Virus record (IMG/VR): IMGVR_UViG_3300025324_000020
Coordinates: 1-41,300 of that record
DNA length: 41,300 bases
Strand: one strand, 5' to 3'
Origin: a virus
Below the pieces are notes generated by a model, which ran no database searches, had not been told where the DNA came from, and was given only the letters and a program-made list of their open reading frames with translations. Numbering within the stretch: position 1 is the stretch's first letter; each line of letters opens with the position of its first letter. Both the position numbers and the translations under genes were made by a program. Below are positions 184-41,300 of this stretch, one piece after another.

Positions 184-503
184 AGCGGGCGACCTCGGAA
201 CGCGTCGAAGCGATCGAGAAAGGCATCGGCACCGCGGAAGAGCACGCGATAATCGAATTGCACAGCCATCATGAAATGCAAGCCGTATTCAGCGACCATG
301 ACGACATCGACGAGGGCACGCTGAGTTTCCGTATCTACGTCGTGATAGGGAGCATTTTCAGCAATCCGTCGCTGCGCGCGCGGGTGGGTTTATTTGGACA
401 CTTCCTCGAGTATCCGGCCAGCGAGTTTTTCAACCTCCCCGAAGGCGTGGTTGATTGCGTGACTGTGAAAGGAGCCAATGAGCAAACGAAGCAGAAGTCG
501 TAA
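184..503 (+). CDS. PRTRC system protein A, C-terminal part with JAB/JAMM peptidase motif
   Basis: This is the 3' part of a gene whose 5' part lies at 40907-41300. Joining base 41300 to base 184 restores one frame and the family-like run LDFPGQRATS. The segment holds a complete JAMM zinc-peptidase motif: HSH, seven residues, then SDHD, which fits H-x-H-x7-S-x2-D. It is followed by a typical PRTRC-A tail (FRIYVVIG, VGLFGHFLEYPASEFF). JAB peptidases of this kind cut ubiquitin-like proteins from targets or trim their precursors. The stop codon overlaps the thiF start by 26 bases, which indicates translational coupling. An open frame also extends upstream to 84, but those residues are encoded by antisense hemG DNA and are not expected in the native protein. 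Confidence 0.85.
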
Positions 504-1425
504 TCGGTGGCGAGAGCAACGGCCTGCTAATCGAAACCCGAAACCTGATCCGGCGCCGTTGAACCTCGACTTCGCGAACGCGGCGACGGTTGTAACCCCC
601 GATTGGCAGGACGTGCAAATCATTCTGGCCGGCTGTGGCGGCATTGGCGCTTATATGGCCCAGCACGTCGGGCGATTGATGCGCGTGATTTATCAGAATG
701 GCAAGGGGGTGAATCTCACCCTGGTCGATCCGGACAGGGTGGAGGAAAAAAACCTGGGGCGACAACTCTTTTGCGAGGCCGAAATTGGCGAGTCGAAGGC
801 TGTGGCCCTGGCGCGGCGCTACGGCTCCGCCTGGGGGCTGAATACCATGGCCTTCGAGGGCGAGTATTCTGAGAGTGTGCTGATGGGCGACTCCGACTTA
901 ATCGTGCTCATCGGCTGTGTCGATAACGCGAAGGCGCGCGGGCTCCTGCACGAAACACTCACCCATAACCCAGAGGATCCCCGGCTCGCGCCGCCGCGTG
1001 AGTGGTGGCTGGACTCGGGGAACCTGAGAGATACCGGACGCGTGATGCTTGGCTCCGCTTACCATGCGGAACAATGCCGCGGCGCCTTCGTCGACAAAAA
1101 GAAAGTTATCTCTTTGCCCTCGCCGGCGCTGCAATACCCATCCCTGCTCATTCCCGGGCCCGACGAGGTGGCTGGAAAGGAAATGAGTTGCGCGGAACTT
1201 CAGGCCGCAAACCTGCAGAGCCTGAATATCAACGCGGCGATTGCCGTGCAGGCAGCGGACATGCTCACCAGGCTGCTCGTCACGAACGACTTAAAACGTT
1301 ATCAGTGTGCCGTGAACCTCGCCTCCGGATCAGTGAAGTCCTTCTTTTGCACCCCGGAGGAGATCGCGCGCGAGATTGGGCGGCCGACCAGTTTTGTTTT
1401 ACACGAGGAGTCGGCAGCGGCATGA
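478..1425 (+). CDS. PRTRC system ThiF family protein (E1-like ubiquitin-activating enzyme)
   Basis: This 315-residue E1-like protein belongs to the ThiF/MoeB superfamily, which adenylates the C-terminus of ubiquitin-like proteins and passes them on as thioesters. A Rossmann ATP-binding loop, AGCGGIG, is at about residues 51-57. It is followed by LVDPDRVEEKNLGRQLF (about 82-98), with the conserved acidic residue and the N-x-x-R-Q motif, then CVDN (about 147-150) and WWLDSGN (about 176-182). A likely catalytic cysteine is C238 in MSCAEL, just before a conserved LQSLNIN helix. The zinc-binding CxxC pairs of MoeB are not obvious. The first 40 residues are basic and probably disordered. The gene overlaps PRTRC-A upstream, and its stop overlaps the next gene as ATGA. 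Its neighbours identify it as the ThiF member of the PRTRC cassette. Confidence 0.9.
   Translation: MSKRSRSRNRWREQRPANRNPKPDPAPLNLDFANAATVVTPDWQDVQIILAGCGGIGAYMAQHVGRLMRVIYQNGKGVNLTLVDPDRVEEKNLGRQLFCEAEIGESKAVALARRYGSAWGLNTMAFEGEYSESVLMGDSDLIVLIGCVDNAKARGLLHETLTHNPEDPRLAPPREWWLDSGNLRDTGRVMLGSAYHAEQCRGAFVDKKKVISLPSPALQYPSLLIPGPDEVAGKEMSCAELQAANLQSLNINAAIAVQAADMLTRLLVTNDLKRYQCAVNLASGSVKSFFCTPEEIAREIGRPTSFVLHEESAAA
1290..1305. promoter_or_regulatory. Dispersed 16-bp palindrome, copy 1 (two mismatches)
   Basis: CTTAAAACGTTATCAG has a perfect left arm and two changes in the right arm. It lies within the thiF coding sequence. Confidence 0.45.
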
Positions 1426-29985: not shown

Positions 29986-30019
29986 TTGACTTTCATCAAC
30001 AACGCTACTGTTGTTGATG
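29986..30019 (+). promoter_or_regulatory. Inverted repeat with promoter-like -35, upstream of a small gene
   Basis: TTGACT (29986-29991) is followed by a 10-base inverted repeat CATCAACAAC / GTTGTTGATG (29994-30003 and 30010-30019) with a six-base loop. No good -10 box is visible. It may be an operator or an RNA hairpin just before the strong ribosome site at 30022. Confidence 0.35.
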
Positions 30020-30032
30020 CCGGGAGGATGTC

Positions 30033-30212
30033 ATGAAAAAAGCACCACTCTTCCGATTTGACGACCAAAACCGCATTTATCAATTCGGGCAAAAGTTGAA
30101 TGAGGGCGATGATGAAGCGGGCAAAGAGTTGGGCAAAGAGTTAATTCTATTTGTAGAAAGCCTGGCCACAATTATTGAGGGCCGAGAGGAAATATCTCAA
30201 ACCGATTTATGA
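30033..30212 (+). CDS. Small hypothetical protein
   Basis: A 59-residue frame (MKKAPLFRFDDQNRIYQFG to REEISQTDL) has GGGAGG at 30022, six to seven bases before the ATG. It is amphipathic and acidic, with a GKELGKELILFVESLATIIEG helix. It is the last gene before the terminator block. No family is recognised. The strong ribosome site supports expression. Confidence 0.5.
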   Translation: MKKAPLFRFDDQNRIYQFGQKLNEGDDEAGKELGKELILFVESLATIIEGREEISQTDL

Positions 30213-30250
30213 TGCTCGGCCCGTGAGGGTGACTGCGGCATAGATCTTTG

Positions 30251-30338
30251 AAGCAAGACACTTGTGTCTTGCTTTCGGTAGCAAAACAATGAGGCTTTGC
30301 TCATTTGTTGTGTATATCGAGTGTTTATTAGAGCTACC
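30251..30338 (+). ncRNA. Structured segment, candidate noncoding RNA
   Basis: Three dyads lie in a row. An 11-base stem (arms 30251-30261 and 30264-30274, GCAAGACAC with GTGTCTTGC) comes first. GGTAGC at 30277 then pairs with GCTACC at 30333, and inside them CAATGAG pairs with CTCATTTG. An intrinsic terminator follows directly (30343-30375). No protein is encoded here. The layout fits a short stable RNA or a structured 3' end of the late transcript. No known RNA family is recognised. Confidence 0.35.
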
Positions 30339-30342
30339 AAGG

Positions 30343-30375
30343 GGAGGGCCGGGGCGGCCCTCCGTTGGTTTTTTT
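30343..30375 (+). terminator. Intrinsic terminator of the late block
   Basis: GGAGGGCC (30343-30350) and GGCCCTCC (30356-30363) form an eight-base GC-rich stem with a five-base loop, extended by CCAA/TTGG pairs. A run of seven T (30369-30375) follows. It ends the rightward transcription from the virion genes. Confidence 0.8.
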
Positions 30376-30469
30376 GGGAAGTAATTTAGCCGACCACTAC
30401 CGCTAGTAGCCCACCTGCTGGCGACCACAATTCGACCCAAAATAATTCTCAAAATCGCACCGATTTCTA
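30376..30469. other. Gap without a recognisable gene
   Basis: After the terminator there are about 94 bases of AT-richer sequence with no frame that has a ribosome site. Only the approach to the promoter at 30470 is visible. Confidence 0.5.
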
Positions 30470-30498
30470 TTGACAGGTAGGCTACTTGAGCCTATAAT
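30470..30498 (+). promoter_or_regulatory. Consensus sigma-70 promoter
   Basis: TTGACA (30470-30475), 17 bases, then TATAAT (30493-30498) is a perfect match to the consensus. It would drive the two small genes that follow and transcription towards attP and the 3' end of the integrase. Confidence 0.85.
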
Positions 30499-30586
30499 TC
30501 CAGCATTGAAAACGCCAATCCCGGCAAGCGACTCTGAGCCTACTCCTGCGCAAGCGCAAACTAAAGACTATGCCCTGCTGTGGCTT

Positions 30587-30808
30587 ATGGGAGGAAAACA
30601 CGGATCAAGAGAGGCGAAGATCATCGCCGCAGTCGCGTGTCCGCGTTGCGGCGCACAAATGGGGGAACCCTGTCGCAACCCCATCGCGCACCAGGCACAC
30701 CGCGGGCCGCAGGATCGGCGCGCGCAACCGCCACGATCCCATCTCGAGCGACGGGATGCCTGGCAGCACGCGCGAGACGTGGCCAAAATGATCGACTCAA
30801 TAGACTGA
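30587..30808 (+). CDS. Small zinc-knuckle protein
   Basis: The frame is open from the promoter. I place the start at ATG 30587 (73 residues), though a TTG at 30506 is possible. CPRCGAQMGEPCRNPIAHQAH, followed shortly by R, is the C-x2-C-G-A-x2-G-x2-C..H pattern found in many small phage and actinobacterial proteins, a probable zinc site. The function is unknown. Its stop overlaps the next start (TGATG). Being driven by a consensus promoter, it may act in early or lysogenic regulation. Confidence 0.55.
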   Translation: MGGKHGSREAKIIAAVACPRCGAQMGEPCRNPIAHQAHRGPQDRRAQPPRSHLERRDAWQHARDVAKMIDSID

Positions 30809-31002
30809 TGCCAACCAATAATCCGCAGATCAAGGTTACGTTGCTCCCAGCAGAGCTTGAGCGCCTGCGCACGGAGGCCAGAGACGGCGAGTCGCTGTCA
30901 AACCTGGTCCGGCGCAAGCTGAAGCTTGAACCGCTCAAGCAAGGCGGCGCTCGATCCGTAAGGGGCAAGAGAAGGGGCGCGGGTCAAACAGGCCGCTGCT
31001 AA
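30808..31002 (+). CDS. Small ribbon-helix-helix-like protein
   Basis: This 64-residue protein, IKVTLLPAELERLRTEARDGESLSNLVRRKLKLEP (residues 8-42, by position), has the strand-helix-helix pattern of Arc/MetJ-type repressors. The basic tail (ARSVRGKRRGAGQTGRC) may bind nucleic acid. It is coupled to the preceding zinc protein and lies beside attP. It could regulate the integrase or act as an excision factor, which is inference from position. Confidence 0.55.
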   Translation: MPTNNPQIKVTLLPAELERLRTEARDGESLSNLVRRKLKLEPLKQGGARSVRGKRRGAGQTGRC

Positions 31003-31003
31003 G

Positions 31004-31048
31004 TGGTGCCCCCGGCGCGATTCCAACGCGCGACCTTCCGCTTAGGAG
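31004..31048 (-). other. Probable phage attachment site (attP): 3' half of tRNA-Arg(CCT)
   Basis: On the minus strand this 45-base block reads as the 3' half of a tRNA-Arg: anticodon loop with CCT, a T-arm GCGCG-TTGGAAT-CGCGC, the acceptor strand CGGGGGC, and CCA. Upstream of the anticodon the sequence no longer fits a tRNA (no D-arm or matching acceptor strand), so it is a fragment and not a gene. It lies 155 bases from the end of the integrase gene, the usual place for a core that replaces the 3' end of the host tRNA on integration. The T-loop has G where tRNAs have the near-invariant C56. Confidence 0.75.
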
Positions 31049-31177
31049 TCTCCCGTGCGGGCCACGCGCTGCTGTATCGAGTGGTCCAGCCAGGCGGCTT
31101 TTTCACGCGAACCCGCGCCAAAGCTTCCCCTCCGAAGCCAGACGAAGCCATGCGGAGCCGGGAGAGAACGGAAACTT

Positions 31178-31200
31178 AAGGGGCAGGCAAAGGGGCAGGC
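31178..31200. repeat. Two direct copies of AAGGGGCAGGC beside the integrase gene
   Basis: The 11-base unit occurs at 31178-31188 and 31190-31200, just after the integrase stop codon and between it and attP. Integrase arm-type sites or excisionase sites are expected in this place. The reading is tentative. Confidence 0.35.
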
Positions 31201-31203
31201 GCC

Positions 31204-32427
31204 TCAGTTGACGCTTTCGCTTTCGGCTGTGACGGCCGTGACATCGGGCGAAGGACTCGGCAGATCGGGCAGGGACGCAGCTCGTATCGCATCGACGCGC
31301 GCGGCGATCGAACGGGCGATTTCGCGGTCGATATTCACGTAACGCAGGAAGGTTTTATAACTCGTATGTCCGGAGATCTTCATCACCTCCGCTTCGGAAA
31401 GCTTGTAAAAGTGAAGCATGCGAGTGATCGCGGTGTGTCGCAGATCGTGCCAGCGCAGGCCTTCGATGCCGGCAAGGCGACAGGCCGTATGAAAGGCTCG
31501 CCTGGGATTGCGATTGAGAAACAGGCGCGGGTCATTCGGACGAGTCTTGAGCAGAACCAAGCGATCCCGTAAGGCCGGCGCGAGCTCGCGAGCCAGGCGA
31601 TCGAAGATAGGCACAACGCGAATCTGCGCAGTCTTCGAACTGAACGCCCGCAAGCTAATTACTCGTTCCCGCGCGTCGACGTCGCGCAACTCGAGCCCCA
31701 TCTGTTCGCCCTGGCGCAGGGCGGTCTCGAGCGCGAAGAGAATCTCGAGCCGAAGATGCCGGCGCGGGCCCACACACACAGCCAACAGTCTTTCCTCTTC
31801 ATCCCAGGTCAGGACGCGCATCCGTTTCACCTCGTCGGCAGTCTGAATTAACGGTTTGCCGCGGTGAAACGGATGCTCGGCGATCCAGCGTTCGCGCAGC
31901 GCTAAAAAAAACAAGTGACGCAGCAGGGAAAGCTCTCGGTTGACTGCCGCGATCGAACGTTGCCGGCCGTGCACGGTGGGTTTCAGTAATCGCTGGCGCT
32001 TGTAGTCGGCGACGTCTCCGTAAGTGATGGTCACCAGCGACATTCGCCCGAAGAACTTTTCCAGGGGCTTCAACCGGCTTTGGAATTTCGCGAACGAACG
32101 AAGGCCTGCGATCTTCATCTCGCCGATATACTCAGCAGGTTTCATTTCATGGAGTTTGTAGTAGGCGACCAGATCTGAGAACGAGCGCCTGGGGTTGGGC
32201 CGCTCAACGCCGGCGAAATCCTGTTCGATCTCCCGGTCGATCTCCCGGCGCCGGCGCGCCGCCTCAGTCTCGGTGTAAGCAATGCGCTTCTTCTCGCGGG
32301 GCCTGCCTTTCAGATCCGTGTAGCGCTTTTTAACCAGCATATGCGCGCGCCGGATCACCTGGCCGGTCGCCTCGTCGATTACAGCCGGGACGTTAACGAT
32401 GGATCCGTCTTTAGTTCCGCGGGGCAT
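31204..32427 (-). CDS. int: Tyrosine recombinase integrase
   Basis: This 407-residue site-specific recombinase has an N-terminal arm-binding region rich in Arg/Lys and a core-binding SAM-like domain (FRDLVAYYKLHEMKP-like, then YGDVADYKRQRLL). The catalytic domain carries ETALRQGEQMGLEL (first Arg), LRWHDLRHTAITRML (H-x-x-R), ISGHTS (His/Gly) and FLRYVNID (nucleophilic Tyr). It would join attP at 31004-31048 to a tRNA-Arg gene. It lies eight bases after the secreted fiber-like gene on the same strand, in an apparent leftward operon with the repressor. Confidence 0.9.
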   Translation of the reverse strand: MPRGTKDGSIVNVPAVIDEATGQVIRRAHMLVKKRYTDLKGRPREKKRIAYTETEAARRRREIDREIEQDFAGVERPNPRRSFSDLVAYYKLHEMKPAEYIGEMKIAGLRSFAKFQSRLKPLEKFFGRMSLVTITYGDVADYKRQRLLKPTVHGRQRSIAAVNRELSLLRHLFFLALRERWIAEHPFHRGKPLIQTADEVKRMRVLTWDEEERLLAVCVGPRRHLRLEILFALETALRQGEQMGLELRDVDARERVISLRAFSSKTAQIRVVPIFDRLARELAPALRDRLVLLKTRPNDPRLFLNRNPRRAFHTACRLAGIEGLRWHDLRHTAITRMLHFYKLSEAEVMKISGHTSYKTFLRYVNIDREIARSIAARVDAIRAASLPDLPSPSPDVTAVTAESESVN

Positions 32428-32435
32428 TTATCTGT

Positions 32436-33374
32436 CTACTCTCGCCTGAACTTCAGAAGGGGCTTTTTCGGCTTAGGCGGAGCCATGGCGTTGCTGGTCG
32501 CACATGTGCCTGTCGTGGGGTCCACCAACCCATGCCGCCGAAGACAGCCCAACAGAGCATTTATGGCCCTGCCGTTGTCTGCCGGCGACCCGTCGCTATC
32601 AGGAATTGGTCCGCACTGGGCGCCCAATACCTGAGTGTCCTGGCGCTTAATCGTCTCGTTGTACACCAGGCTCGCGGACGTCACTATAGTTTCTCTTTGC
32701 CAGCCACCAACGAGCACGCGATCTTGGTTGTCAACGAAGATTGCGGCGATGCTGTTGTCCCCAGCCGCATTGCCCCATCGGAGAGCCTGGTGATTATTTC
32801 TGAAGCCAAATCCACCATTTGGCGCCGGCCGTAAGTCGAGAAACCCATCGTCATGCCAAATTCCCCACTGCGCTCCGCCGTTGGAAAAGTTCCGAAAAAA
32901 ATTGATTTGACCGTGAAGGGTCAGGCCAAAGTTGCCGGTATCATACTGAACAGTCCAACCAAACGGGCGAATCGAAATCGAACCGTCAGGGCTGGCCCAG
33001 TTGTAGTGATACTCGGTCATGAAGGCGCCCGGATCTCCGGGAACGCCGTTTCTGAACTTAGCTTCACTGGAAAACATGAAGTTGACGAGCCCTGGAACAA
33101 CCTTCGTCCCATTGAAATCCGAATTGTAACCGAAGCCAAAGGTGTGGTTCGTGTAGTTAATCTCTTCCGGCGGCCCATTCGTGAAATCGAAGCCCATTGA
33201 ACTGAAAACCACCGGAGCAAAAGTTGGCCCACTGGTGGCTAGTCGTATCCTGGCGGCATCGTTTCGCAAGTTGAACGCGCCAAATAAAGCGTCATTGTCA
33301 GGTGTCTGGGCTGAAACTGAAACAACCGAAACAACGAGCAGGCAACTGAGTGCAAGTATCGTAAGGGTTTTCAT
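32436..33374 (-). CDS. Secreted tail-fiber-like protein, candidate superinfection-exclusion factor
   Basis: I place the start at ATG 33374 (a GTG lies one codon before), after GGAGA. The 312-residue protein has a signal peptide, MKTLTILALSCLLVVSVVSV, with probable cleavage after SVSA (residue 22). Residues about 41-223 match the globular domain of the phage's own tail fiber (24055-25449, residues 138-316). Shared phrases include RLAT, FDFTNGP, YNSDFNGTKVV, SIRP, INFFR or HFFR, and VDN..V..G. It lacks the virion-anchoring N-terminus of the fiber. It lies between repressor and integrase on the lysogeny strand, so it is probably made by lysogens. I infer that it occupies the receptor and blocks related phages. 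Confidence 0.75.
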   Translation of the reverse strand: MKTLTILALSCLLVVSVVSVSAQTPDNDALFGAFNLRNDAARIRLATSGPTFAPVVFSSMGFDFTNGPPEEINYTNHTFGFGYNSDFNGTKVVPGLVNFMFSSEAKFRNGVPGDPGAFMTEYHYNWASPDGSISIRPFGWTVQYDTGNFGLTLHGQINFFRNFSNGGAQWGIWHDDGFLDLRPAPNGGFGFRNNHQALRWGNAAGDNSIAAIFVDNQDRVLVGGWQRETIVTSASLVYNETIKRQDTQVLGAQCGPIPDSDGSPADNGRAINALLGCLRRHGLVDPTTGTCATSNAMAPPKPKKPLLKFRRE

Positions 33375-33433
33375 CACAGTGGTCTCCTTCGGGGAGCGCT
33401 AGTCTAACACCGCGGTCAAGGGGAACTGGGTTT

Positions 33434-33844
33434 TTAAGCTGCTCGATCACTTCCCCGGTGATTTTTTGACTGGCCAGGCTGAACAGATCGCAACTGGTGA
33501 AGGCTGCGTAATATCCCGAGCAGGTCTTCCTGGCGCTCGCTGGGTAACTCGCGAAAAAGTCTTAGTAGGATCTGTTCCTGTGTGGACGGATCTGTCGGGG
33601 CTCTGCCCTGAACCGTGGCGAATATCTCTTCTCTTGGCACGCCGAGTCCATTGGCCAGGGCTAGAAGCTTTCTGGGGCTCGGATTGGTAGCAATTCCGCT
33701 TTCGATGCGGGAGACGTAAGTCCCCGCAATCTTAGTTCCCCGCCGCGCGCTTTGCCGTTCGATATCGCCCTGCGACAGGTTTTTAGCAATTCGCACTCGC
33801 CGGACGTAATCCGCTAATGATTCGGGCTTTTCCCGTTCACCCAT
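33434..33844 (-). CDS. XRE-family repressor
   Basis: I place the start at ATG 33844 (MGEREKPESLADYV), preceded by GGAGGG. The frame is open further upstream but has no better site. The 136-residue protein has an N-terminal helix-turn-helix (ADYVRRVRIAKNLSQGDIER, then GTYVSRIESGI and PRKLLALANGLGV). A helical C-terminus for dimerisation follows (EQILLRLFRELPSERQEDLLGILR). It is divergent from the early promoter at 33990 and is probably the lysogeny repressor. No protease-type (LexA-like) domain is present, so induction would not be by self-cleavage. Confidence 0.8.
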   Translation of the reverse strand: MGEREKPESLADYVRRVRIAKNLSQGDIERQSARRGTKIAGTYVSRIESGIATNPSPRKLLALANGLGVPREEIFATVQGRAPTDPSTQEQILLRLFRELPSERQEDLLGILRSLHQLRSVQPGQSKNHRGSDRAA

Positions 33845-33989
33845 AGCATAGCCCTCCGCCGGGGAACGAGGACTTCTGAGCATTAGCCGGCACACATTCA
33901 AAGTCATAGGTGAGGCCTTTCCCAATTTGCACCGATACCCCTATCATTGGGAGCCATACCAAAGGTGCCGGATTCCGTGAAAATAATGC

Positions 33990-34018
33990 TTGACAGGGAT
34001 TCAGGAACGGTTTATAAA
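33990..34018 (+). promoter_or_regulatory. Early rightward promoter
   Basis: TTGACA (33990-33995), a 17-base spacer and TATAAA (34013-34018) form a strong sigma-70 promoter pointing right, away from the repressor gene. An operator-like dyad (34031-34047) overlaps the expected transcription start. Confidence 0.8.
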
Positions 34019-34030
34019 GCCCTGCATATA

Positions 34031-34047
34031 GGTACGTAATCCGTACC
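34031..34047. promoter_or_regulatory. Candidate repressor operator GGTACG-N5-CGTACC
   Basis: A perfect six-base inverted repeat with a five-base spacer lies 13 bases after the -10 box. Bound repressor would block initiation. The same half-site GGTACG recurs in the 34711-34747 dyad. Confidence 0.6.
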
Positions 34048-34061
34048 GATTGGGAGAGTAG

Positions 34062-34262
34062 ATGGGAAACCAAAACACTAATTCCACCAATTCGACCGGT
34101 GAAGCTCCTCCAGAAATCAATGTCACGGTGAGCTTGAAGGGCCAGGACGCGTTGCGATTTCTGGCGTACAAGCGCCGAGAACTTTTGCGCGCAAACGCAG
34201 AGGCTGGCTACAAGCTCATGTTTGAGCGGTTGAGGCAAGTGGAAGAGCAGGCGGCGGCCTAA
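34062..34262 (+). CDS. Small early protein, possibly Cro-like
   Basis: This 66-residue protein is the first gene from the early promoter, with GGGAGAG nine bases upstream. An Asn/Thr-rich N-terminus leads to a strand INVTVSLKG and helices DALRFLAYKRRELLRANAEAGY and ERLRQVEEQAA. The small size and position suggest a Cro-type or other early regulator, but there is no clear helix-turn-helix. Confidence 0.5.
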   Translation: MGNQNTNSTNSTGEAPPEINVTVSLKGQDALRFLAYKRRELLRANAEAGYKLMFERLRQVEEQAAA

Positions 34263-34328
34263 CCGGCATGGGTAGCCGGAAAGGCACTCGGCGAAGCGGG
34301 GTCGTCTTGCGTGCACGCCGAAAACGAT

Positions 34329-34352
34329 GGGAGAGCGGGTGGGAGAGCGGGT
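34329..34352. repeat. Two tandem copies of GGGAGAGCGGGT
   Basis: A 12-base unit is repeated exactly in the gap between the first early gene and the anti-CBASS gene. A 28-residue basic frame (34268-34354) crosses it but has no ribosome site, so the gap is treated as noncoding. Confidence 0.5.
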
Positions 34353-34449
34353 GAGCGCCCAAAGGGGAAGAGAGGCCTCACCACATTGTAGAGCATTCGT
34401 CAAAGCAGGTTGTTTTATTTCCAATCTTCAAAAGGAAAGGAGGCAGCAT

Positions 34450-34665
34450 TTGAGAACCAGACAGGAGGCAATCGATTATTTCACTTATAAGCCGCCCACT
34501 GAGGAAACTACCCCAAAGTTCCAAGCCGTGACGCGCGAATTTATAGCGCTGGTTTCGGCACTTTACGACGTTCTGCCGGAGGGTCCGGGCAAAACGGTGG
34601 CGCTGAGGAAATTGTCCGATGCGCGCATGGCTTGCAATGCGTGCATCGCGAATCAAGGACTTTGA
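34450..34665 (+). CDS. acb2: Anti-CBASS protein Acb2 (cyclic-oligonucleotide sponge)
   Basis: I place the start at TTG 34450, six bases after AGGAGG. Upstream in-frame ATGs would add unrelated residues. The 71-residue protein matches the Acb2/Tad1-type hairpin family common in phages: an N-terminal DYFTYKPPTEET, then a helix KFQAVTREFIALVSALYDVLP. A second helix follows, TVALRKLSDARMACNACIAN, the family's A-x-M-x-x-N-A-x-I-A signature with one Cys for Ala change. Acb2 proteins bind cyclic di- and trinucleotide signals and prevent activation of CBASS (and some also Thoeris) immunity. It is placed early in the lytic transcript, where it would be needed on entry. Confidence 0.8.
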   Translation: MRTRQEAIDYFTYKPPTEETTPKFQAVTREFIALVSALYDVLPEGPGKTVALRKLSDARMACNACIANQGL

Positions 34666-34710
34666 CCCAAAGAGGGTTTCAACCCTTTGCCCTCTTCCGG
34701 GGGTCAAAGA

Positions 34711-34747
34711 CTGGGTACGGGCTAATCGATTCGTCACACGTACCCAG
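34711..34747. promoter_or_regulatory. Nine-base inverted repeat with operator-like half-sites
   Basis: CTGGGTACG (34711-34719) and CGTACCCAG (34739-34747) are exact complements separated by 19 bases. They contain the GGTACG half-site of the 34031 dyad. The site may be a second operator or an RNA hairpin. It lies in a gene-free gap. Confidence 0.4.
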
Positions 34748-34787
34748 GATTTCTTGACGACGGCGAAACACCAGGAGGATCGAGGAA

Positions 34788-34841
34788 ATGCTCCTGACTC
34801 GCCGACACGCGCGGGCTTGCTCCGGACTGTTTAAAGGTTAG
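34788..34841 (+). CDS. Possible 17-residue leader peptide
   Basis: AGGAGG (34773) and GAGG (34782) precede ATG 34788, which opens a short frame MLLTRRHARACSGLFKG. Nothing else supports it. It may be a leader for the membrane peptide downstream or may be chance. Confidence 0.2.
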   Translation: MLLTRRHARACSGLFKG

Positions 34842-34864
34842 AGTGACAGGAACCGGTGAAGCCC

Positions 34865-34914
34865 CACCCAGCCGCAGAGGAATGTTCGAGGGGGAGCGTT
34901 CCTCTCGGCGGGTG
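34865..34914 (+). promoter_or_regulatory. Stem-loop upstream of the membrane-peptide gene
   Basis: CACCC-a-GCC pairs with GGC-GGGTG, and inside it AGAGGAA pairs with TTCCTCT. The stem ends two bases before the GGAGG ribosome site at 34916. It could mask or expose that site, giving translational control. Confidence 0.45.
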
Positions 34915-34925
34915 CGGAGGTAGAG

Positions 34926-35015
34926 ATGAAAGACAGGCGGCAAAAACACTTCTTAGTAGCGGCCATCATTCTCTTCATCCTGGTGGCCATTATCGCTCTG
35001 GCGAGAAGTTTATGA
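34926..35015 (+). CDS. 29-residue single-span membrane peptide
   Basis: ATG 34926 follows GGAGG by five bases. The product has a basic head MKDRRQKHF and one strong membrane helix LVAAIILFILVAIIALA, then RSL. Its stop overlaps the next gene's ATG (ATGA), so the two are translationally coupled. It may be a small toxin-like or superinfection-related membrane peptide; no family is assigned. Confidence 0.5.
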   Translation: MKDRRQKHFLVAAIILFILVAIIALARSL

Positions 35016-35497
35016 ACGTTGAGATCCCCGAGCTTCCCTTTGCACCAGTCTCTACCAAGGTGTGCCCGCTCTGTAACCTCGAGCTGTCTCGCGAAGATGA
35101 CTTTGGCGTTGTGCGGGCGCGGCCGGACGGTCGGAATCTTTACTGTAAGTCGTGCATCCGGAAGAAGGTCACGGCCAGTCGACAAAAGCGGCGCTTAATA
35201 CGGTTGGCTCGTCAAGCAGCCCGCCAGGCGGCTTTGGATGGCATCGTCGTTGAACGCAAAGGAAACGTGATTGCCGCCATTCCCGCTATTCCAACGCCGG
35301 CGGAAAAAGTATTCCGCGAACTCCAGGCGCCACTCACCCAAAAAACTCTTCATCGGCTGACCGGCTTGAGCCCCGACGGGGTCTCGGAGGCTCTGGCTGA
35401 GTTAATGCTGGTCGAGGGAACGGTTGTGCGTGCTGGTTGGGTTGACGGCGAACGCCTTTATGCGCGCAAGGAAGCAGACGCAAGGAGGCGCGCATGA
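35012..35497 (+). CDS. Zinc-ribbon plus winged-helix regulator
   Basis: I place the start at ATG 35012, overlapping the membrane peptide stop. An upstream in-frame ATG at 34856 lies in the structured leader. The 161-residue protein has a zinc ribbon CPLCNLELSRED..YCKSCIRKK (about residues 19-52) and a basic helix. The C-terminal winged helix (PLTQKTLHRLTGLSPDGVSEAL, then GTVVRAG and ERLYARK) resembles transcription regulators of lactococcal and mycobacterial phages, but the target is unknown. Confidence 0.6.
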   Translation: MNVEIPELPFAPVSTKVCPLCNLELSREDDFGVVRARPDGRNLYCKSCIRKKVTASRQKRRLIRLARQAARQAALDGIVVERKGNVIAAIPAIPTPAEKVFRELQAPLTQKTLHRLTGLSPDGVSEALAELMLVEGTVVRAGWVDGERLYARKEADARRRA

Positions 35498-35844
35498 AAA
35501 CGCTCGAGGATAGGTTAGGAGCGGCGCGACAGATACTGCTCGAGATGGAAGCCAGAGAGAGCAACAACTTTGCGCTGGCGCGCAAGGTGCTCGGGGAGAT
35601 GGAAGAAGATGTCCGCGCGCTCCGCATGGAGGTAGGGCGAAAGCAAATCGAAATCTTCACCGAGGAGGAGTTTGCGGCGAAACTGAAAATCAGCGTCACC
35701 ACTCTGAGGAGAATCCGCAGGGAGGGGAGGGTGCAACCGCTGCAACTCACGGAAAAGACAATTCGCTATTCATCGTTGCAGCTCGAGCGGGTGCACGAAA
35801 TTTTTCCGCGAGCGGCACGATCTGGCCTAAGGAAGGTTTCGTGA
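35494..35844 (+). CDS. Excisionase/MerR-like helix-turn-helix protein
   Basis: This 116-residue protein is coupled by ATGA to the previous gene. A helical N-terminal half (DRLGAARQILLEMEARESNNF) leads to a helix-turn-helix, FTEEEFAAKLKISVTTLRRIRREGRVQPLQL, typical of the MerR-like excisionase (HTH_17) fold. It may act in excision or in replication control. It lies 3 kb from attP. Confidence 0.6.
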   Translation: MKTLEDRLGAARQILLEMEARESNNFALARKVLGEMEEDVRALRMEVGRKQIEIFTEEEFAAKLKISVTTLRRIRREGRVQPLQLTEKTIRYSSLQLERVHEIFPRAARSGLRKVS

Positions 35845-36038
35845 ACGGAAGATGTTTAATCTGCGGTCATGATATTCACGACCCGGGTAAATGCGGGAAG
35901 TGCAATTGTGGCGAGAGCGATATCAATCACGCGGATGCTCTACGGTTCGATGTCTCCTACGCGAGTTTACCCGGGGAGAAGTGCCCGTCGAGGCCGATGA
36001 AGCACCTAAGGCCGCGGAAAAATCACTGGAGGTCATGA
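35841..36038 (+). CDS. Small zinc-binding protein
   Basis: A GTG start overlaps the previous stop. The 65-residue protein has CLICGHDIHDPGKCGKCNCGE, a dense cysteine/histidine cluster likely to bind zinc, then a basic tail KHLRPRKNHWRS. Its stop overlaps the next start. The function is unknown. Confidence 0.5.
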   Translation: MNGRCLICGHDIHDPGKCGKCNCGESDINHADALRFDVSYASLPGEKCPSRPMKHLRPRKNHWRS

Positions 36039-36763
36039 GAAGCAACAAACCGGATGATTACCCGAGCCTGTTCGCGATGAGCCCAGGAACTCCGCTGTCT
36101 TTAGTGGGCGCCCGGGCGACCGAATCCTCCAAGGTTCACAGGATTGTTAGAAATCGGTCGACCGCGAAACCCGGATTCGGGCGCCCGGGCGACCGATTTT
36201 GCGAGACCGAATATCAGTGGGCTTCGCGGGCCGGACGGAAGCGCAAAGCCGGGCGCTTCAACCCCGAACTTTTGCGGAAAACCGAGGTGGAATTGAAGAA
36301 ACAGGGGAAGCTCTGGCAAGAGTTTGTGGATTATGCGATGGCTGTTTGGCTCGAGGCCGGCAGTCCGAATTTGGTCGACCGGGCGCCCGCATGTAGTTGT
36401 AGTGGTAGTTGTTGTGTTCTACATAAAGATCAAAATAAAACCACAACAACAACCACTGCGGTCGCCCGAAATCTGCCCGGCTTCCCATCGGAACTGCTGG
36501 AGATCCCGCACAAGACGTTGCATCCGCTTCAGACACTATGGGACTACGCGATGTCAAGCTATCGCCAGGAGTTTGACGGGTACGAGGGAGTAGCCAAGCC
36601 GCATTTCTGGATCAGAGAAGCATGGAAGACCGGCAAGTACGATTCGATTGTCAGTTCGTGGATGGAGACCAAGCAGCGTCACGAGCAGCGTCTGCAAAAG
36701 GCAGACGAAAAACGGCAAAAAGAAATCGAACAGATGCGCCGTGTCGAGCCAAAAGAGTCATGA
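36035..36763 (+). CDS. Basic protein with internal origin-like repeats, possible replication initiator
   Basis: The start at ATG 36035, coupled to the previous gene, gives 242 residues. The N-terminal half is basic and low in motif content. The middle (KAGRFNPELLRKTEVELKKQGKLWQEFVDYAMAVWL, residues 71-106) is helical. A Cys/Thr-rich insert (CSCSGSCC, then TTTTTT) is followed by a helical C-terminus with a charged coil (EQRLQKADEKRQKEIEQM). The DNA inside the gene carries iteron-like repeats and an AT-rich dyad (see 36106-36480), much as lambda O encodes its own origin. No family match is claimed. Confidence 0.45.
   Translation: MRSNKPDDYPSLFAMSPGTPLSLVGARATESSKVHRIVRNRSTAKPGFGRPGDRFCETEYQWASRAGRKRKAGRFNPELLRKTEVELKKQGKLWQEFVDYAMAVWLEAGSPNLVDRAPACSCSGSCCVLHKDQNKTTTTTTAVARNLPGFPSELLEIPHKTLHPLQTLWDYAMSSYRQEFDGYEGVAKPHFWIREAWKTGKYDSIVSSWMETKQRHEQRLQKADEKRQKEIEQMRRVEPKES
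36106..36480. repeat. Iteron-like cluster of GGTCG(A/C)CC sites, candidate replication origin
   Basis: An 18-base unit GGGCGCCCGGGCGACCGA occurs exactly at 36106-36123 and 36179-36196. CGGTCGACCG lies at 36155-36164. A near-inverted copy GGTCGACCGGGCGCCC lies at 36373-36388, and GGTCGCCCG near 36460. Between the last two is an AT-rich 16-base dyad (AGTGGTAGTTGTTGTG with CACAACAACAACCACT, one mismatch). Repeats plus an AT-rich dyad within a putative initiator gene fit a phage origin. Confidence 0.5.
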
Positions 36764-37155
36764 GCAATCGCGGTCGTTGCAACCAATGTGGCGCAGAGAT
36801 TATCTGGGCCATAAACACCGAGCGGAACCGAAGGGCGGCCTTAGATTCCGCCCCCTGGCCGGATACTCACGGCAACATAATGCTGCACGAAGACGGACGG
36901 CACTACCAGATTCTCAACAGTGAGCTAATCGAGCAAGCGCGCCGGCGCAGCTTCCCGCTGTACACCAATCACCTTGAAACCTGTCCGGCGCGCGAGCGCC
37001 CATCGCGCTATCAACAAACCTTCGGCACGGAGGAGAAAGATATCTATGAGTACACAAATGGATCAGACGCCAGTGAAGGGCATGCCGCCGGAACTGGCAG
37101 AGAAAGGCTGGCAACTCTTTTTGAGCGACAGCATGAAGTTTCGCGCGTCGGTTGA
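36760..37155 (+). CDS. Small phage zinc-binding protein, paralogue of 1422-1712
   Basis: The start at ATG 36760, coupled to the previous gene, gives 131 residues. The first 80 residues match the 1422 protein in order and spacing: CNQCGAEIIW, RRAALDSAPWPDTHGNIMLH, RRRSFPLYTNHLETCPA. The last 50 residues overlap the ParB gene by 110 bases in another frame, an unusually long overlap, and are probably a poorly conserved tail. It opens the PRTRC cassette at its upstream side. Confidence 0.65.
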   Translation: MSNRGRCNQCGAEIIWAINTERNRRAALDSAPWPDTHGNIMLHEDGRHYQILNSELIEQARRRSFPLYTNHLETCPARERPSRYQQTFGTEEKDIYEYTNGSDASEGHAAGTGRERLATLFERQHEVSRVG

Positions 37156-38746
37156 AGTTAATGGAGACGAGCTTGTGCTCGGTCCCTACCCAACGGCCCA
37201 GGAGGCGATCGACGATGCGCGCAACCGCCAGGTCGAGATCGACGAGATATTGCCAGAGGACATAATTGAGAGCGGGTGGCGGCTGGAAGAAGGGAAGAAA
37301 CCGCTGCCTTACAGTTTGGTAAACGACAAGTTGGAACTCAATACCGAGAACTATCGCTATGTCGCGGGCGCGATCGAAAAAGCGCGCGAAATGGAAATTG
37401 AAAAGGCGGAGCGCGATGCGGTGGCCACAGATGGCAATGTAGCCGCAGTGGCGGCACCGGCGAAGATATCACCCAGCGCGGCAAGTGTAGACGTAACTAG
37501 TGTAGACGTAACTATGCTTATGCACCCTGACGAGATTCGCACCGACGGCGGAACGCAACCGCGGGAGGCGCTCGACATGGTCGTCGTCGCCGAATACAAA
37601 GAGGCAATGATATTTGGCGCCGTGTTTCCGTCCGCCGACGTGTTTTATGACGGGCAGCACTACTGGCTCGCCGACGGCTTCCACCGCCACCGGGCAACGA
37701 TCGAGGCGGAACTGGAAGAGATGCTGGTGACCGTTCACGACGGCACGCAGCGCGATGCGCTGCTGTTTTCTTTCGGAGCAAACGAAACGCATGGCCTCCG
37801 GCGCTCCAACGCTGATAAACGCCGCGCGGTTCTAACAATGCTTCACGATGACGAGTGGCGGGAATTATCAGATACAGTCATCGCGGAGACCGCCAAGGTC
37901 TCTCAGCCATTCGTCTCCAAACTCCGCCGCGAGATATCTCAAAATGTTTTAAGTGGAGAGGCTCAGCCAACGGCGCGTAAGGGCAAGGACGGCATAGTAC
38001 GCGAGACCGCGAACATCGGCGGGCGCGGGGAAGGTGAGATCGCGGCGACCGATGATCGCCAGAGGTCACTGGCTGACATTGGCGTTGAGTTGCCTCCGAG
38101 AACCGAATTCGAGGAGGAGACGGAGGAGTCGCTGGCCGCCCAGGCGCAGCGGCGGGAGATCGCCGGCGATTGGTCCACGGATGAAGTCGTGAGCGCGATC
38201 CGGAAAAACGGCGGCTCGATGTTTCGCGGCGAGCTCGAGGAACGCGGGTGCTCATACGCCGCTATCCTGGGCGCGCTTCACGATGAGGCAATCACTCAAC
38301 CGGAGACGGGCAAGTACGCGCTCCGGGATTTGCAGGAGCGTTCAGAAGCATTCGAGAAGAAGCACGGAACCGATATATCAGCGGCACCGGCACCTTCGCC
38401 ACGTCCAACGAAGGCAAAGGTGACGGTCGAAGAGTTGCTAAAAGGCCGAATGCTGGTCGTCAGCTTCACCTGGATTCCCGGGCTGAAAAACAAGGTGAGC
38501 GTGAGCGTGAACGCGGGCCAGAAGCCGGAGAATGCCTCGCGGGAAGTTATTGACTCGATCAAGACGCCGCAGTTTCCCGACGAAGTGCAGGCCCTGATCG
38601 TCCAACAACTAAAAAACCCTCCGGCAGTCACTGGCTCTACAAAGCGAGTCAAGACACCAGCGCGGAGCCGGCCAGCCCGGAAGTCTGTGGCGAAGAAGGC
38701 GGCGAAGAAAGCCGCCAAGAAACCCACCAAAGGAAGGAGGCGGTAA
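37046..38746 (+). CDS. PRTRC ParB-family protein with Lys/Ala-rich tail
   Basis: The start at ATG 37046 follows GGAGGAG. A frame open from 36974 has no ribosome site. The 566-residue protein has a long N-terminal region. A ParB-type nuclease-like domain lies at about 160-255, with DGQHYWLADGFHRHRATIEA and FGANETHGLRRSNADKRRAV, and a helix-turn-helix at about 272-297 (LSDTVIAETAKVSQPFVSKLRRE). A linker follows, then a domain near 435-500 (RMLVVSFTWIPGLKNKVSVSVN) that may be a fused PRTRC-E-like unit. The end is a histone-like Lys/Ala tail. It is the likely binder of the dispersed palindromes, one of which lies inside it. Confidence 0.75.
   Translation: MSTQMDQTPVKGMPPELAEKGWQLFLSDSMKFRASVEVNGDELVLGPYPTAQEAIDDARNRQVEIDEILPEDIIESGWRLEEGKKPLPYSLVNDKLELNTENYRYVAGAIEKAREMEIEKAERDAVATDGNVAAVAAPAKISPSAASVDVTSVDVTMLMHPDEIRTDGGTQPREALDMVVVAEYKEAMIFGAVFPSADVFYDGQHYWLADGFHRHRATIEAELEEMLVTVHDGTQRDALLFSFGANETHGLRRSNADKRRAVLTMLHDDEWRELSDTVIAETAKVSQPFVSKLRREISQNVLSGEAQPTARKGKDGIVRETANIGGRGEGEIAATDDRQRSLADIGVELPPRTEFEEETEESLAAQAQRREIAGDWSTDEVVSAIRKNGGSMFRGELEERGCSYAAILGALHDEAITQPETGKYALRDLQERSEAFEKKHGTDISAAPAPSPRPTKAKVTVEELLKGRMLVVSFTWIPGLKNKVSVSVNAGQKPENASREVIDSIKTPQFPDEVQALIVQQLKNPPAVTGSTKRVKTPARSRPARKSVAKKAAKKAAKKPTKGRRR
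37484..37513 (+). repeat. Tandem 15-base repeat inside parB
   Basis: AGTGTAGACGTAACT is repeated exactly, encoding SVDVT twice. It lies in the linker before the nuclease-like domain and may be a recent duplication. Confidence 0.6.
37938..37953. promoter_or_regulatory. Dispersed 16-bp palindrome, copy 7 (two mismatches), inside parB
   Basis: CTCAAAATGTTTTAAG lies in the parB coding sequence just after the region encoding the helix-turn-helix. Partition proteins often have a binding site in or near their own gene. Confidence 0.5.
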
Positions 38747-39196
38747 ATGGGCCTGATAAAAATCGAGGGCAAGGAAGTCTCGCTGCCGGACGCAATCATC
38801 GACGCCGGCACGTCTGCAATCCGCGCGGCCCTGAGCGTTGACTTCCCCGATGTCGAGAATGCCGACATTCAAATCGTCTCGCCCACCCGCGCCGGCGCGC
38901 CGAAAGCGGCAACCGTCGTGAAGCGCGGTACCGGTAAAGGCTCCGCGCAACGCGAAGTCATGGAATCGCTGGCGGCTGCGCCGGAGTACGTCAACCCGGC
39001 CATCGCGATGGCCATCGAGTGTATGGCGGAAGAAACGCGCGGCGATCAGGAAGCAATCATGAGAGTTATTCGATCAGGCGCAATGGAACGGGCGGTCGCG
39101 GAAGGTGAACGTGAGGGCCTCGCCGTACATAAGTCCCAGGTTGCGTGTGGCCATGCGCCCCCGATCGCGGCGAGAAAGGTGCCGATTGGCTTCTGA
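38747..39196 (+). CDS. PRTRC protein C: ubiquitin-like protein with C-terminal extension
   Basis: The ATG directly follows the parB stop, and GGAGG is upstream. Residues 1-65 match the PRTRC-C ubiquitin-like (beta-grasp) family: LIKIEGKEVSLPDAIID, the helix SAIRAALSVDFPDVENADI, and the C-terminal GTGKG at 61-65, comparable to the GTKG end of family members. The usual protein stops about here, at 65-75 residues. This one continues for 84 residues of mostly helix (AAAPEYVNPAIAMAIECMAEE). The extension is odd and suggests either a precursor trimmed by the JAB protein or a fused second domain. Confidence 0.7.
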   Translation: MGLIKIEGKEVSLPDAIIDAGTSAIRAALSVDFPDVENADIQIVSPTRAGAPKAATVVKRGTGKGSAQREVMESLAAAPEYVNPAIAMAIECMAEETRGDQEAIMRVIRSGAMERAVAEGEREGLAVHKSQVACGHAPPIAARKVPIGF

Positions 39197-39197
39197 G

Positions 39198-40085
39198 ATG
39201 CAGCGGCAACTCACCCTGGACATGGCGCGGGTTTATCTCGCGTCGCGCGCGCGCGTGCGGACGCCGCTCGGCGCCGGCGACTATCTTGACTGCTCGCATC
39301 ATTACGCGCGAGACATTTACGACAAGCGGATACTGATCGCGCTGGCCTGCCTGTCAATCTACCGGCAACTTTTTCCCGACCAGTATGCGCGCTCGGCGGC
39401 GCCGCCGTTCTCAACACAGCGCGAACAGGAGTTTTACCGCCTCGTGCACACGCACTGCTTTCCTCTCCTTGTTGACGACGGAGAAGATGTATTGACCTGG
39501 ATCGCGCGCGAGCCTCGATTCTTTCTCCCCTTCATTCCGATCCGCGGCTTGCAGCGATACGACTGGTTCATGGATGGCTCGCATGTGAAGGATTTCGAGA
39601 TTCCGTACCAACTCGCGCTGCTCCTCTCCGGAGCGCTGCCGGATGACGTGCACACGATCGCTGGTCTTTGCTTCCCGGCTGATTTCCCGGAGCCGGCCCC
39701 GCCGGTCGCGGCTGTCGGCTGGTCGCTATTTCTGCATGCCTGCAAAGTCCATGAGGATAGCCCGCTTCGCTTTCTGCCCCTGGCCTTCCACATGGTCAGC
39801 CACAAGACAGGCAATCTCTGGCTTGACCTGCCGCGCCACGTGGGCCAGGCGGCATACGCGTGGTCACCCGAAGAAGTAGCGCGGCTCACGTTAATGCGGG
39901 TGAACGCGGATAAATTCGATATCGCCGTGCGCGCGCTGCACAACTGGTTTATCGAAGATCTGCGAGCGCGCATCAGCCGGGTGATTGAGATCTGGAATGA
40001 CGCAGCGCGGAAAGAATCGGAAGCGGGTTATGGAGGTATGACGGCAGAGGATATGGTTGCTGTGGTTGCTGCTCTCCCCAGGTGA
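39198..40085 (+). CDS. PRTRC system protein F
   Basis: I place the start at ATG 39198, one base after the previous TGA codon (39194-39196). A longer frame from 39105 would overlap the Ubl gene. The 295-residue protein has a long N-terminal mixed region, then GLQRYDWFMDGSHVKDFEIPYQLALLLSGALPDDV (residues 113-147, by position). FLPLAFHMVSHKTGNLWLDL and a C-terminal VRALHNWFIEDLRARISRVIEIW follow. Position between PRTRC-C and B, length, and content fit PRTRC protein F, whose biochemical role is unknown. Confidence 0.65.
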   Translation: MQRQLTLDMARVYLASRARVRTPLGAGDYLDCSHHYARDIYDKRILIALACLSIYRQLFPDQYARSAAPPFSTQREQEFYRLVHTHCFPLLVDDGEDVLTWIAREPRFFLPFIPIRGLQRYDWFMDGSHVKDFEIPYQLALLLSGALPDDVHTIAGLCFPADFPEPAPPVAAVGWSLFLHACKVHEDSPLRFLPLAFHMVSHKTGNLWLDLPRHVGQAAYAWSPEEVARLTLMRVNADKFDIAVRALHNWFIEDLRARISRVIEIWNDAARKESEAGYGGMTAEDMVAVVAALPR

Positions 40086-40097
40086 GTTCGAGCGCGT

Positions 40098-40910
40098 ATG
40101 ACGGAGGGTACTGAATTGACCTACGAAATTGTTGATACGGGGCTGGACGTGATCGAAAGCCTGAGGAAGCGCGATGGTGTCAGCATAAGACCCCAGCAGA
40201 GCGCAGCGGAAAACCCGCGGCTGGAATTCCGTAACGGCCAATTCTTCTTTCGCAGCACGTTACTGGAGGGTGGCCTCGTCGAACGTTATCTGTCCGACGC
40301 GGCCGTGCGCGAGGCATTCTCGAAAATCCCGATTGACTCGGGCTGGCTCAATCCCGAGATCGCGAGGTGGGGAGACGGGAAGCTCGGGGAGTGGGCCGTC
40401 GCGTTTTTCCCGCCGTCGCTATATGACCTGGAGGTCACTCGAGAGGGCGAGGAAATTGCCCTTGACCGGATCCGCATTCCACTTCCAGGCATGGTGTTCT
40501 TTGGCATAGGGACGAATTATTTCGCGTGGGCTGTGAAGAGTGAAAGTCTCCAGCCATTTCACGAGATTTTCCGGGCGCCGCTGCCGAATGTCTACACCAG
40601 CGGCGCAGTGTGCTGGGGCCTGGTCACCCCACCGCGCGCCAACGCGCGTTCGCTGTTTCAGGCATGGGATCTCTTTATCAGGTCCACATTCAACAACCAT
40701 CTCGCGAATGGGAAGTCGAAGCGCTCTCGCGATGACGTGCGAATCATCCTGCGCGAACTCGCTGGTCCACGCGATCCAGTGGACCAGGTAATGGCTGGCG
40801 AAGCATGGCATTACCCGGTCGAAGATCTGGTGCGCCAGGTAGAGCACGTCGGGGTGACGCTGGACAAAGCGCTGCGCGAATTCTTTGAGACGGGAGAAAT
40901 GCCGGAGTGA
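40098..40910 (+). CDS. PRTRC system protein B (E2-like conjugating protein)
   Basis: This 270-residue protein matches the PRTRC-B / Prok-E2_D family. The beta-rich N-terminus has PRLEFRNGQFFFRSTLLEGG. WAVAFFPPSLYDLEV and IPLPGMVFFGIGTNYFAWAV follow. The probable active-site cysteine is C172 in PLPNVYTSGAVCWG, analogous to E2 catalytic cysteines. The C-terminal quarter has LFIRSTFNNHLANGKSK. It would accept the ubiquitin-like protein from ThiF and pass it to targets. Its stop overlaps the PRTRC-A start by three bases (GTGA). Confidence 0.85.
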   Translation: MTEGTELTYEIVDTGLDVIESLRKRDGVSIRPQQSAAENPRLEFRNGQFFFRSTLLEGGLVERYLSDAAVREAFSKIPIDSGWLNPEIARWGDGKLGEWAVAFFPPSLYDLEVTREGEEIALDRIRIPLPGMVFFGIGTNYFAWAVKSESLQPFHEIFRAPLPNVYTSGAVCWGLVTPPRANARSLFQAWDLFIRSTFNNHLANGKSKRSRDDVRIILRELAGPRDPVDQVMAGEAWHYPVEDLVRQVEHVGVTLDKALREFFETGEMPE

Positions 40911-41300
40911 GTGCCGTGCGCCAGATCACACGCTTTACCGACCATCACTTCGCGCTGCCGGGCGAGCGGCTGCCTCCGGTCGATGAATCCCTGATGCTCG
41001 ATTACGTGGTTGGCCGCAATGGTATCTATGCGCGCGGGCGACGGCCGGGGATGGAGGCGTGCATCCCTATCCCTATCATTGGGGCGAGCGTGCGAGGCTT
41101 GCGCGGCGTCGAGCCGTACGTGCAGTGGGGTTATCCGAAAGTGCCGGCGCAAATGCTTGCACTCGTTTTCAGCGTTAGCCAGAGCCTGGCCAGGAACCAG
41201 CCGCGCGAGGCGCTGTTTTATATGCTCTTCAGCCGGGCCGCGTGCGCCACTCCCGCACACCTGTTGTGCATGGACGGCTGGCATCTCGACTTCCCGGGCC
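40907..41300 (+). CDS. PRTRC system protein A, N-terminal part (continues at base 184)
   Basis: The start at GTG 40907 overlaps the PRTRC-B stop (GTGA); a GTG at 40916 is an alternative. The first 131 codons contain family-typical blocks: VDESLMLDYVVGRNGIYARGRRPGMEACIPIP, RGLRGVEPYVQWGYPKVPAQML and EALFYMLFS. The frame leaves the window at the first base of a codon. Joined to base 184 it reads LDFPG-QRATSERV and reaches the JAMM motif, giving about 237 residues in all. The gene's own continuity is the main evidence that the genome is circular or circularly permuted. Confidence 0.85.
   Translation, partial: MSAVRQITRFTDHHFALPGERLPPVDESLMLDYVVGRNGIYARGRRPGMEACIPIPIIGASVRGLRGVEPYVQWGYPKVPAQMLALVFSVSQSLARNQPREALFYMLFSRAACATPAHLLCMDGWHLDFPG

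Follow-up and report, generated by a model that had tools for sequence, protein, structure and literature searches.

A divergent relative of the Acb2/Tad1 hairpin proteins as a candidate nucleotide-signal sponge of a phage

The gene and its genomic setting

The window, by which we mean the whole stretch of DNA that was analysed, is a virus record of 41,300 bases from IMG/VR. At positions 34450..34665 of its plus strand lies a gene that starts with TTG, ends with the stop codon at 34663-34665 and encodes a protein of 71 aa; it was delineated from its frame, profile matches, a structural model and dN/dS. The translation of this frame is MRTRQEAIDYFTYKPPTEETTPKFQAVTREFIALVSALYDVLPEGPGKTVALRKLSDARMACNACIANQGL, followed by the stop, and it contains both of the motifs by which the gene had been noticed in the original prediction, namely FTYKPPTEET and the A-x-M-x-x-N-A-x-I-A signature (as ARMACNACIA). 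The ribosome-binding site AAAGGAGG (34436..34443, plus strand) is located 6 nt upstream of the TTG, and 7-base ribosome-site matches of the same kind are also found at other genes of the window, including those at 35494 and 38747. The 71-aa frame is nested in a longer frame of 112 aa that opens at ATG 34327, so that the predicted arrangement of a TTG start hidden in a longer frame was indeed encountered. ATG 34327 has a ribosome-site match of 3 bases only, and no ribosome-binding site comparable to AAAGGAGG was found at this codon or at the GTG codons at 34339 and 34351. After the TTG, the GC contents at the three codon positions (0.55/0.46/0.59) follow the order of the six window genes compared, whereas in the in-frame upstream stretch (34327..34449, plus strand, 41 codons) they are 0.59/0.51/0.46, an order unlike that of the six genes. 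This stretch is not conserved in kin phages and is probably not translated. The long frame was dropped as the gene because it lacks a ribosome-binding site, its codon-position GC is off and it is not conserved. In view of the AAAGGAGG site, the codon-position GC and the conservation in kin, the sequence signals indicate that the gene at 34450-34665 is real and that TTG 34450 is the best start call.

Two kin phage contigs were found via the E2 protein of the window, and a search with the kin alignment recovered the same two. Their homologues of the 71-aa protein (99 aa in G001/L003 and 103 aa in G002/L004) are 59 and 62% identical to it. The homologous gene is positioned upstream of the E2 gene in all three phages, by 5.6 kb in the window and by about 7.5 kb in the kin. 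The window gene and its two homologues have diverged at third codon positions, and the NG86 dN/dS ratios of 0.37/2.6 and 0.35/3.1, for which dS is saturated, point to purifying selection. The two kin proteins have in common an additional N-terminal segment of about 29-33 residues (TDGxxGxQIREQA..KPA; L003:2431-2517 and L004:2470-2568). This extension has no counterpart in the window, since tblastn of both extensions against 33901-34800 matched the core only, and the idea that the window formerly possessed it was dropped on the same ground.

In the rightward unit to which it belongs, the gene takes second place after a 66-aa ORF (34062..34262, plus strand) that has a homologue in the kin contig L003 and for which no homologue was found in L004. 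A promoter-like sequence, TTGACA-17-TATAAA (33990..34018, plus strand), faces this unit; it was recognised by sequence and pattern, and the formal promoter scan missed it because the scan pattern requires a final T in the -10 element. The inverted repeat GGTACG-TAATC-CGTACC at 34031..34047 is a possible operator. Just 3' of the gene, at 34713-34745, there is an inverted repeat (GGGTACG...CGTACCC) that has its core in common with the former, and the two repeats may perhaps represent two operators. Divergent from the unit is a gene for an HTH repressor-like protein (33434..33925, minus strand; HTH_31, E=1.3e-8; phrog_3 repressor, 1.9e-8). Further to the left lies a tyrosine integrase gene (31204..32427, minus strand; Phage_integrase, E=1.1e-17), which suggests that the phage is temperate. 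In temperate phages, a rightward unit divergent from the repressor is the usual site of early lytic genes, and to judge by this position the gene is probably expressed early. To the right, a 213-aa ORF (34856-35497) contains a CPLC..CxxC zinc-ribbon-like stretch and shows a weak likeness to endonuclease VII/HNH and Lar-like families.

Apart from the sponge candidate, the phage encodes an E1-like protein of 315 aa (478..1425, plus strand), an E2-like protein of 270 aa (40098..40910, plus strand) and the C-terminal half of a JAB protein (84-503) that is cut by the contig end. It had been proposed that these proteins provide a second point of contact with CBASS. Their best names are PRTRC_ThiF (137.8 bits, cut-off 144.75), Prok-E2_D / PRTRC_B (49.1 bits, cut-off 131.45) and PRTRC_A (35.5 bits, cut-off 101.8), respectively, of which they appear to be divergent forms. 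The Cap2 protein of CBASS is a single E1-E2 fusion; in the window E1 and E2 are separate genes and no Cap2-like fusion is present. The PADLOC E1-E2 models, scanned against nine chosen proteins, matched the E1 protein only, with at most 40 bits. The assignment of E1/E2/JAB to Cap2/Cap3 was rejected because the PRTRC models match best and E1 and E2 are separate, and from these sequence matches we do not regard the genes as a CBASS type II operon. The proposal of two contact points with CBASS is therefore not sustained. The contig ends (40907-41300 and 84-503) meet inside the JAB gene, which would make E2, JAB and E1 neighbours across the ends. The end-to-start frame has one stop, the JAB frame is open and unbroken in both kin (L003 and L004), and no exact terminal repeat of at least 10 bases was found at the contig ends.

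Sequence relationships and predicted fold

The profile PF24729 (Acb2_Tad1_hairpin) matches the window protein over 57 of 58 positions with an E-value of 7e-5. The score of 23.3 bits, like those of the kin proteins (23.0 bits, E=9e-5; 26.1 bits, E=1e-5), lies below the curated gathering cut-off of 27 bits, and T4 Acb2 scores 71.4 bits. For this reason, we refer to the window protein as divergently related to the family and do not count it among the curated members. Among the PHROGs, which have no curated cut-off, phrog_1454 is the best match (E=3.9e-12, positions 9-76 of 81), and phrog_1761 (E=4e-6) and phrog_5120 (E=6e-4) match as well. phrog_1454 holds proteins with an FTYHPP motif, such as gp90 of phage Jenst, a protein of Lactococcus phage P1046 and gp31 of Streptomyces phage Bing, which score above the PF24729 cut-off. 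phrog_1761/5120 holds proteins with an HLPxxLQ motif. The three HLPxxLQ proteins scanned (DumpsterDude gp8, Mwe-JY08 and Erwinia pEa_SNUABM_18) were not matched by PF24729.

Both families were collected for comparison. The FTYHPP set of 75 loci was reduced to 62 by removal of four fragments (L090, L091, L096, L099) and duplicates. For the HLPxxLQ family, a single scan of IMG/VR yielded at least 571 stretches that encode a member; of these, 80 loci were kept, and 71 remained after removal of duplicates and of proteins of 110 aa or more. In hhalign comparisons, the window clade gave 96.4% with the FTYHPP family and 97.0% with the HLPxxLQ family, and the two families gave 53.7% with each other. 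By sequence, the window clade thus appears to be placed between the two. The family HMMs scored the window protein at 37.5 bits (FTYHPP) and 32.7 bits (HLPxxLQ), and the maxima over 1000 shuffles were 5.7 and 9.5 bits. The neighbouring genes are scattered in both families, the commonest PHROG being found in 4 of 70 and 2 of 72 ORFs. These tallies are rough, as they comprise 70 of 122 and 72 of 145 ORFs that were picked manually among the first 90 entries of each list and called by a simple length rule, the omitted ORFs being mostly small or on the opposite strand. Within the limits of this sampling by hand, such scatter fits accessory genes, whereas genes for virion parts would not be expected to show it. 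In some cases the HLPxxLQ hairpin is the C-terminal region of a larger protein (e.g. L017:191-619 of Erwinia phage pEa_SNUABM_18, phrog_1761); the N-terminus of these longer proteins (EVIVRILGPVGAGKSAVY) is P-loop-like and gave weak AAA matches.

Searches with the single protein were largely unproductive. When the 71-aa sequence was compared with 50,697 phage records by tblastn, no match was obtained at E≤0.01; at E≤10 there were 59 records, the best of which (0.02) was an HLPxxLQ-family (family B) protein. Pattern scans with the single protein yielded 19 stretches in viral contigs and 192 in genome contigs, with no relatives among them. No phage was matched by megablast of 30000-41300, and the window protein was not matched by NCBIfam. 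Against the PDB, phmmer with the window protein produced a chance match alone (0.15) and no solved Acb2, and the three-sequence kin profile (A1) also found no Acb2. Profile A4, which consists of 36 rows, namely 33 of the 75 FTYHPP loci hand-picked for spread plus A1, retrieved 9ptq at 3.8e-7, Tad1 at about 0.009 and Vs.4 at 0.27. Profile A3 retrieved 9ptq at 1.7e-8, as well as Vs.4 by construction because A3 includes T4 Acb2. The comparison of A1 with A4 was not used, since A1 is contained in A4 and the comparison would be circular. In the literature searched, we found no mention of PF24729, phrog_1454, "Acb2-like" or "Tad1 hairpin".

A structural model of the window protein, built with the A4 alignment (pLDDT 92.5), consists of one short and two long helices (residues 4-11, 21-41 and 46-69). 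This is the layout given for Acb2 in two papers (PMC12043709; PMC10419184). For the structural ranking, 239 PDB chains were aligned with VIA-align 2. The best solved neighbour was 9ptq, "Acb2 homolog 43 in complex with 3'cADPR" (Z 8.0, 1.4 Å over 61 residues), and the second was T4 Vs.4 with cGAMP, 7uq2 (Z 6.4, 3.4 Å over 62 residues). Z values of such a size can be common among helical hairpins, and as unrelated helical chains start at Z 6.1, close to 7uq2, only 9ptq stands clear. With Foldseek, no PDB entry matched the window model at E≤0.001. The top 11 rows from BFVD were without exception Acb2/Tad1 hairpin proteins, with TM values of 0.73-0.86. The predicted structural resemblance to known Acb2 was thus borne out by the model, though the agreement partly follows from the sequence evidence, as the rows of A4 are largely FTYHPP proteins. 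The same three helices are present in the model made for the HLPxxLQ family (pLDDT 95.4) from alignment A7, of whose 46 rows three belong to the window clade. In BFVD this model retrieved its own kin first, and Acb2/Tad1 hairpins at ranks 6, 10, 12, 13, 14 and 16. A second structural comparison for this family included no Acb2 chain among the 84 Foldseek candidates aligned and carries no weight against a relation. Altogether, the profile, the predicted fold and the structural neighbours support a relation of the window protein to the Acb2/Tad1 helical-hairpin superfamily.

Possible ligands and alternative readings

On the basis of family and fold, the window gene product would be a divergent Acb2/Tad1 hairpin relative that works as a nucleotide-signal sponge, a reading to which we assign a probability of roughly 0.58. 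The hairpin helices would mediate the assembly of several copies of the protein into a multimer, and pockets formed where its subunits meet would hold the ligand, a second messenger of bacterial immunity that would be bound tightly and left uncleaved. With the messenger soaked up, the suicide effector would stay off while the phage replicates. For the window protein, we infer this assembly, ligand binding and counter-defence. As the ligand, a cADPR-type Thoeris signal and a CBASS cyclic di- or trinucleotide seem about as likely.

The more specific view that the protein has the true Acb2 function, in other words that it forms hexamers which block CBASS by sequestering cA3 and cGAMP-like dinucleotides, appears unlikely to us. 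According to Jenson et al. 2023 (PMC10097602), Y8 and F82 of T4 Vs.4 stack on cGAMP, hydrogen bonds or salt bridges are formed by Y8, H11, K23 and R79, and the mutations that break the hexamer are at L29, A66, A73 and A77. When T4 residues were mapped onto the window protein by ungapped blocks, three of the four interface residues were identical (L29=L34, A66=A51, A73=A58), which together with a T4-like YKPxTEE segment, the retained pocket tyrosine (Y8=Y13) and the rank of T4 Acb2 as second structural neighbour speaks for an anti-CBASS function. On the other hand, this tyrosine is the only one of the five direct cGAMP contacts that is kept, H11, K23, R79 and F82 being replaced by P16, T28, A64 and A67. 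The position of A77 is occupied by C62 in the window protein and by I or V in the kin, and A77I in T4 Acb2 is described as disrupting activity. In addition, a 17-residue insertion of the T4 protein is absent. The equivalent of T4 T68, a residue at which T68M lowers binding according to PMC12657230, is R53.

The lost contacts argue against a cGAMP pocket and not against a sponge as such, because Acb2 homolog 43 also lacks equivalents of T4 Y8, H11 and F82 and has nevertheless been crystallised with 3'cADPR. This leads to the alternative that the window protein, like homolog 43, is a sponge for a TIR-made Thoeris signal (3'cADPR/2'cADPR), which we rate as about equally probable as the anti-CBASS function. 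Homolog 43 is the closest solved structure, aligned without indels and with 12 of 61 residues identical, a similarity that was reached in none of 20,000 shuffles. Moreover, the hairpin is common to Tad1, a known gcADPR sponge according to the PF24729 name and PMC12043709. The identity to homolog 43 is only 20%, however, and its K20 corresponds to T28 of the window protein.

A further explanation is that the protein is a functional member of phrog_1761/5120, maybe no sponge at all, and that its likeness to Acb2 reflects an ancestral hairpin fold only. We consider this doubtful. The hhalign and HMM scores given above are as good for the HLPxxLQ family as for the FTYHPP family, and an LPxxPxKTVALRKL segment is in common. 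The same applies to the arrangement (T/S)[RK] at the K23 position, where the window clade has T28-R29. By regular expression, this position is R in 74 of 75 FTYHPP proteins (one was unmatched); of the 80 HLPxxLQ proteins, 43 have S followed by K or R, 20 have S followed by another residue and 17 were unmatched. Against a mere membership in phrog_1761/5120 stand the lead of phrog_1454 over phrog_1761 by six orders of magnitude, the N-terminal FTYKPP and C-terminal NAxIAN of the FTYHPP type, and the Acb2/Tad1 proteins that are its BFVD neighbours.

The clade of the window protein may link phrog_1761/5120 into the Acb2/Tad1 superfamily. The HLPxxLQ family would then be a widespread and hidden group of sponges for immune signals, whose basic pocket is re-registered, with (T/S)[RK] substituting for the invariant R, and whose ligand is perhaps new to sponges. 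We regard this extension as rather unlikely; if true, it would provide the first function for a common phage family that has none in the libraries searched. Taken alone, the window protein is one more divergent hairpin of the sponge superfamily, in a phage lineage without a homologue at E≤0.01 among 50,697 records. Of the original prediction of an Acb2-like anti-CBASS sponge, the hairpin relation is supported, and the anti-CBASS part is not established. Because the solved structure closest to the window protein contains a Thoeris-type signal, and because the protein has lost most of the T4 cGAMP contacts, the name Acb2 should not be read as anti-CBASS.

Comparison with known systems

Acb2 homolog 43 (9ptq) shares the hairpin and an LPEG loop with the window protein, but lacks its Y13 and has a Lys at the position of T28. 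T4 Acb2/Vs.4 (7uq2) resembles it in the hairpin fold, the YKPxTEE segment, the pocket Tyr and three of four interface residues, and differs by its 17-residue insertion, the four changed cGAMP contacts and an RMSD of 3.4 Å. The FTYHPP family (PF24729, phrog_1454; e.g. gp90 of Brevibacillus phage Jenst) has the same F-x-Y-x-x-P start and NAxIA end and likewise no long insertion. However, identities to this family are only 18-33% over 33 rows, and its near-invariant R and W are missing in the window protein, which has T28 and A61 instead. With the HLPxxLQ family (phrog_1761/5120), the window protein shares AV(T/S)[RK]xF, TVALRKLxxA and the predicted three-helix layout, whereas this family has no YxPP segment, ends in KDAAVRA where the window protein has RMACNACIA, and is four residues shorter before helix 2. 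Tad1 differs in that, according to PMC12043709, an N-terminal beta-sheet domain precedes its hairpin, while the 71-aa window protein is modelled as helices only. Lastly, the PRTRC cassette (ThiF, B/E2, A/JAB) provides the best-matching models for the E1, E2 and JAB proteins of this phage, yet all three matches are below the curated cut-offs.
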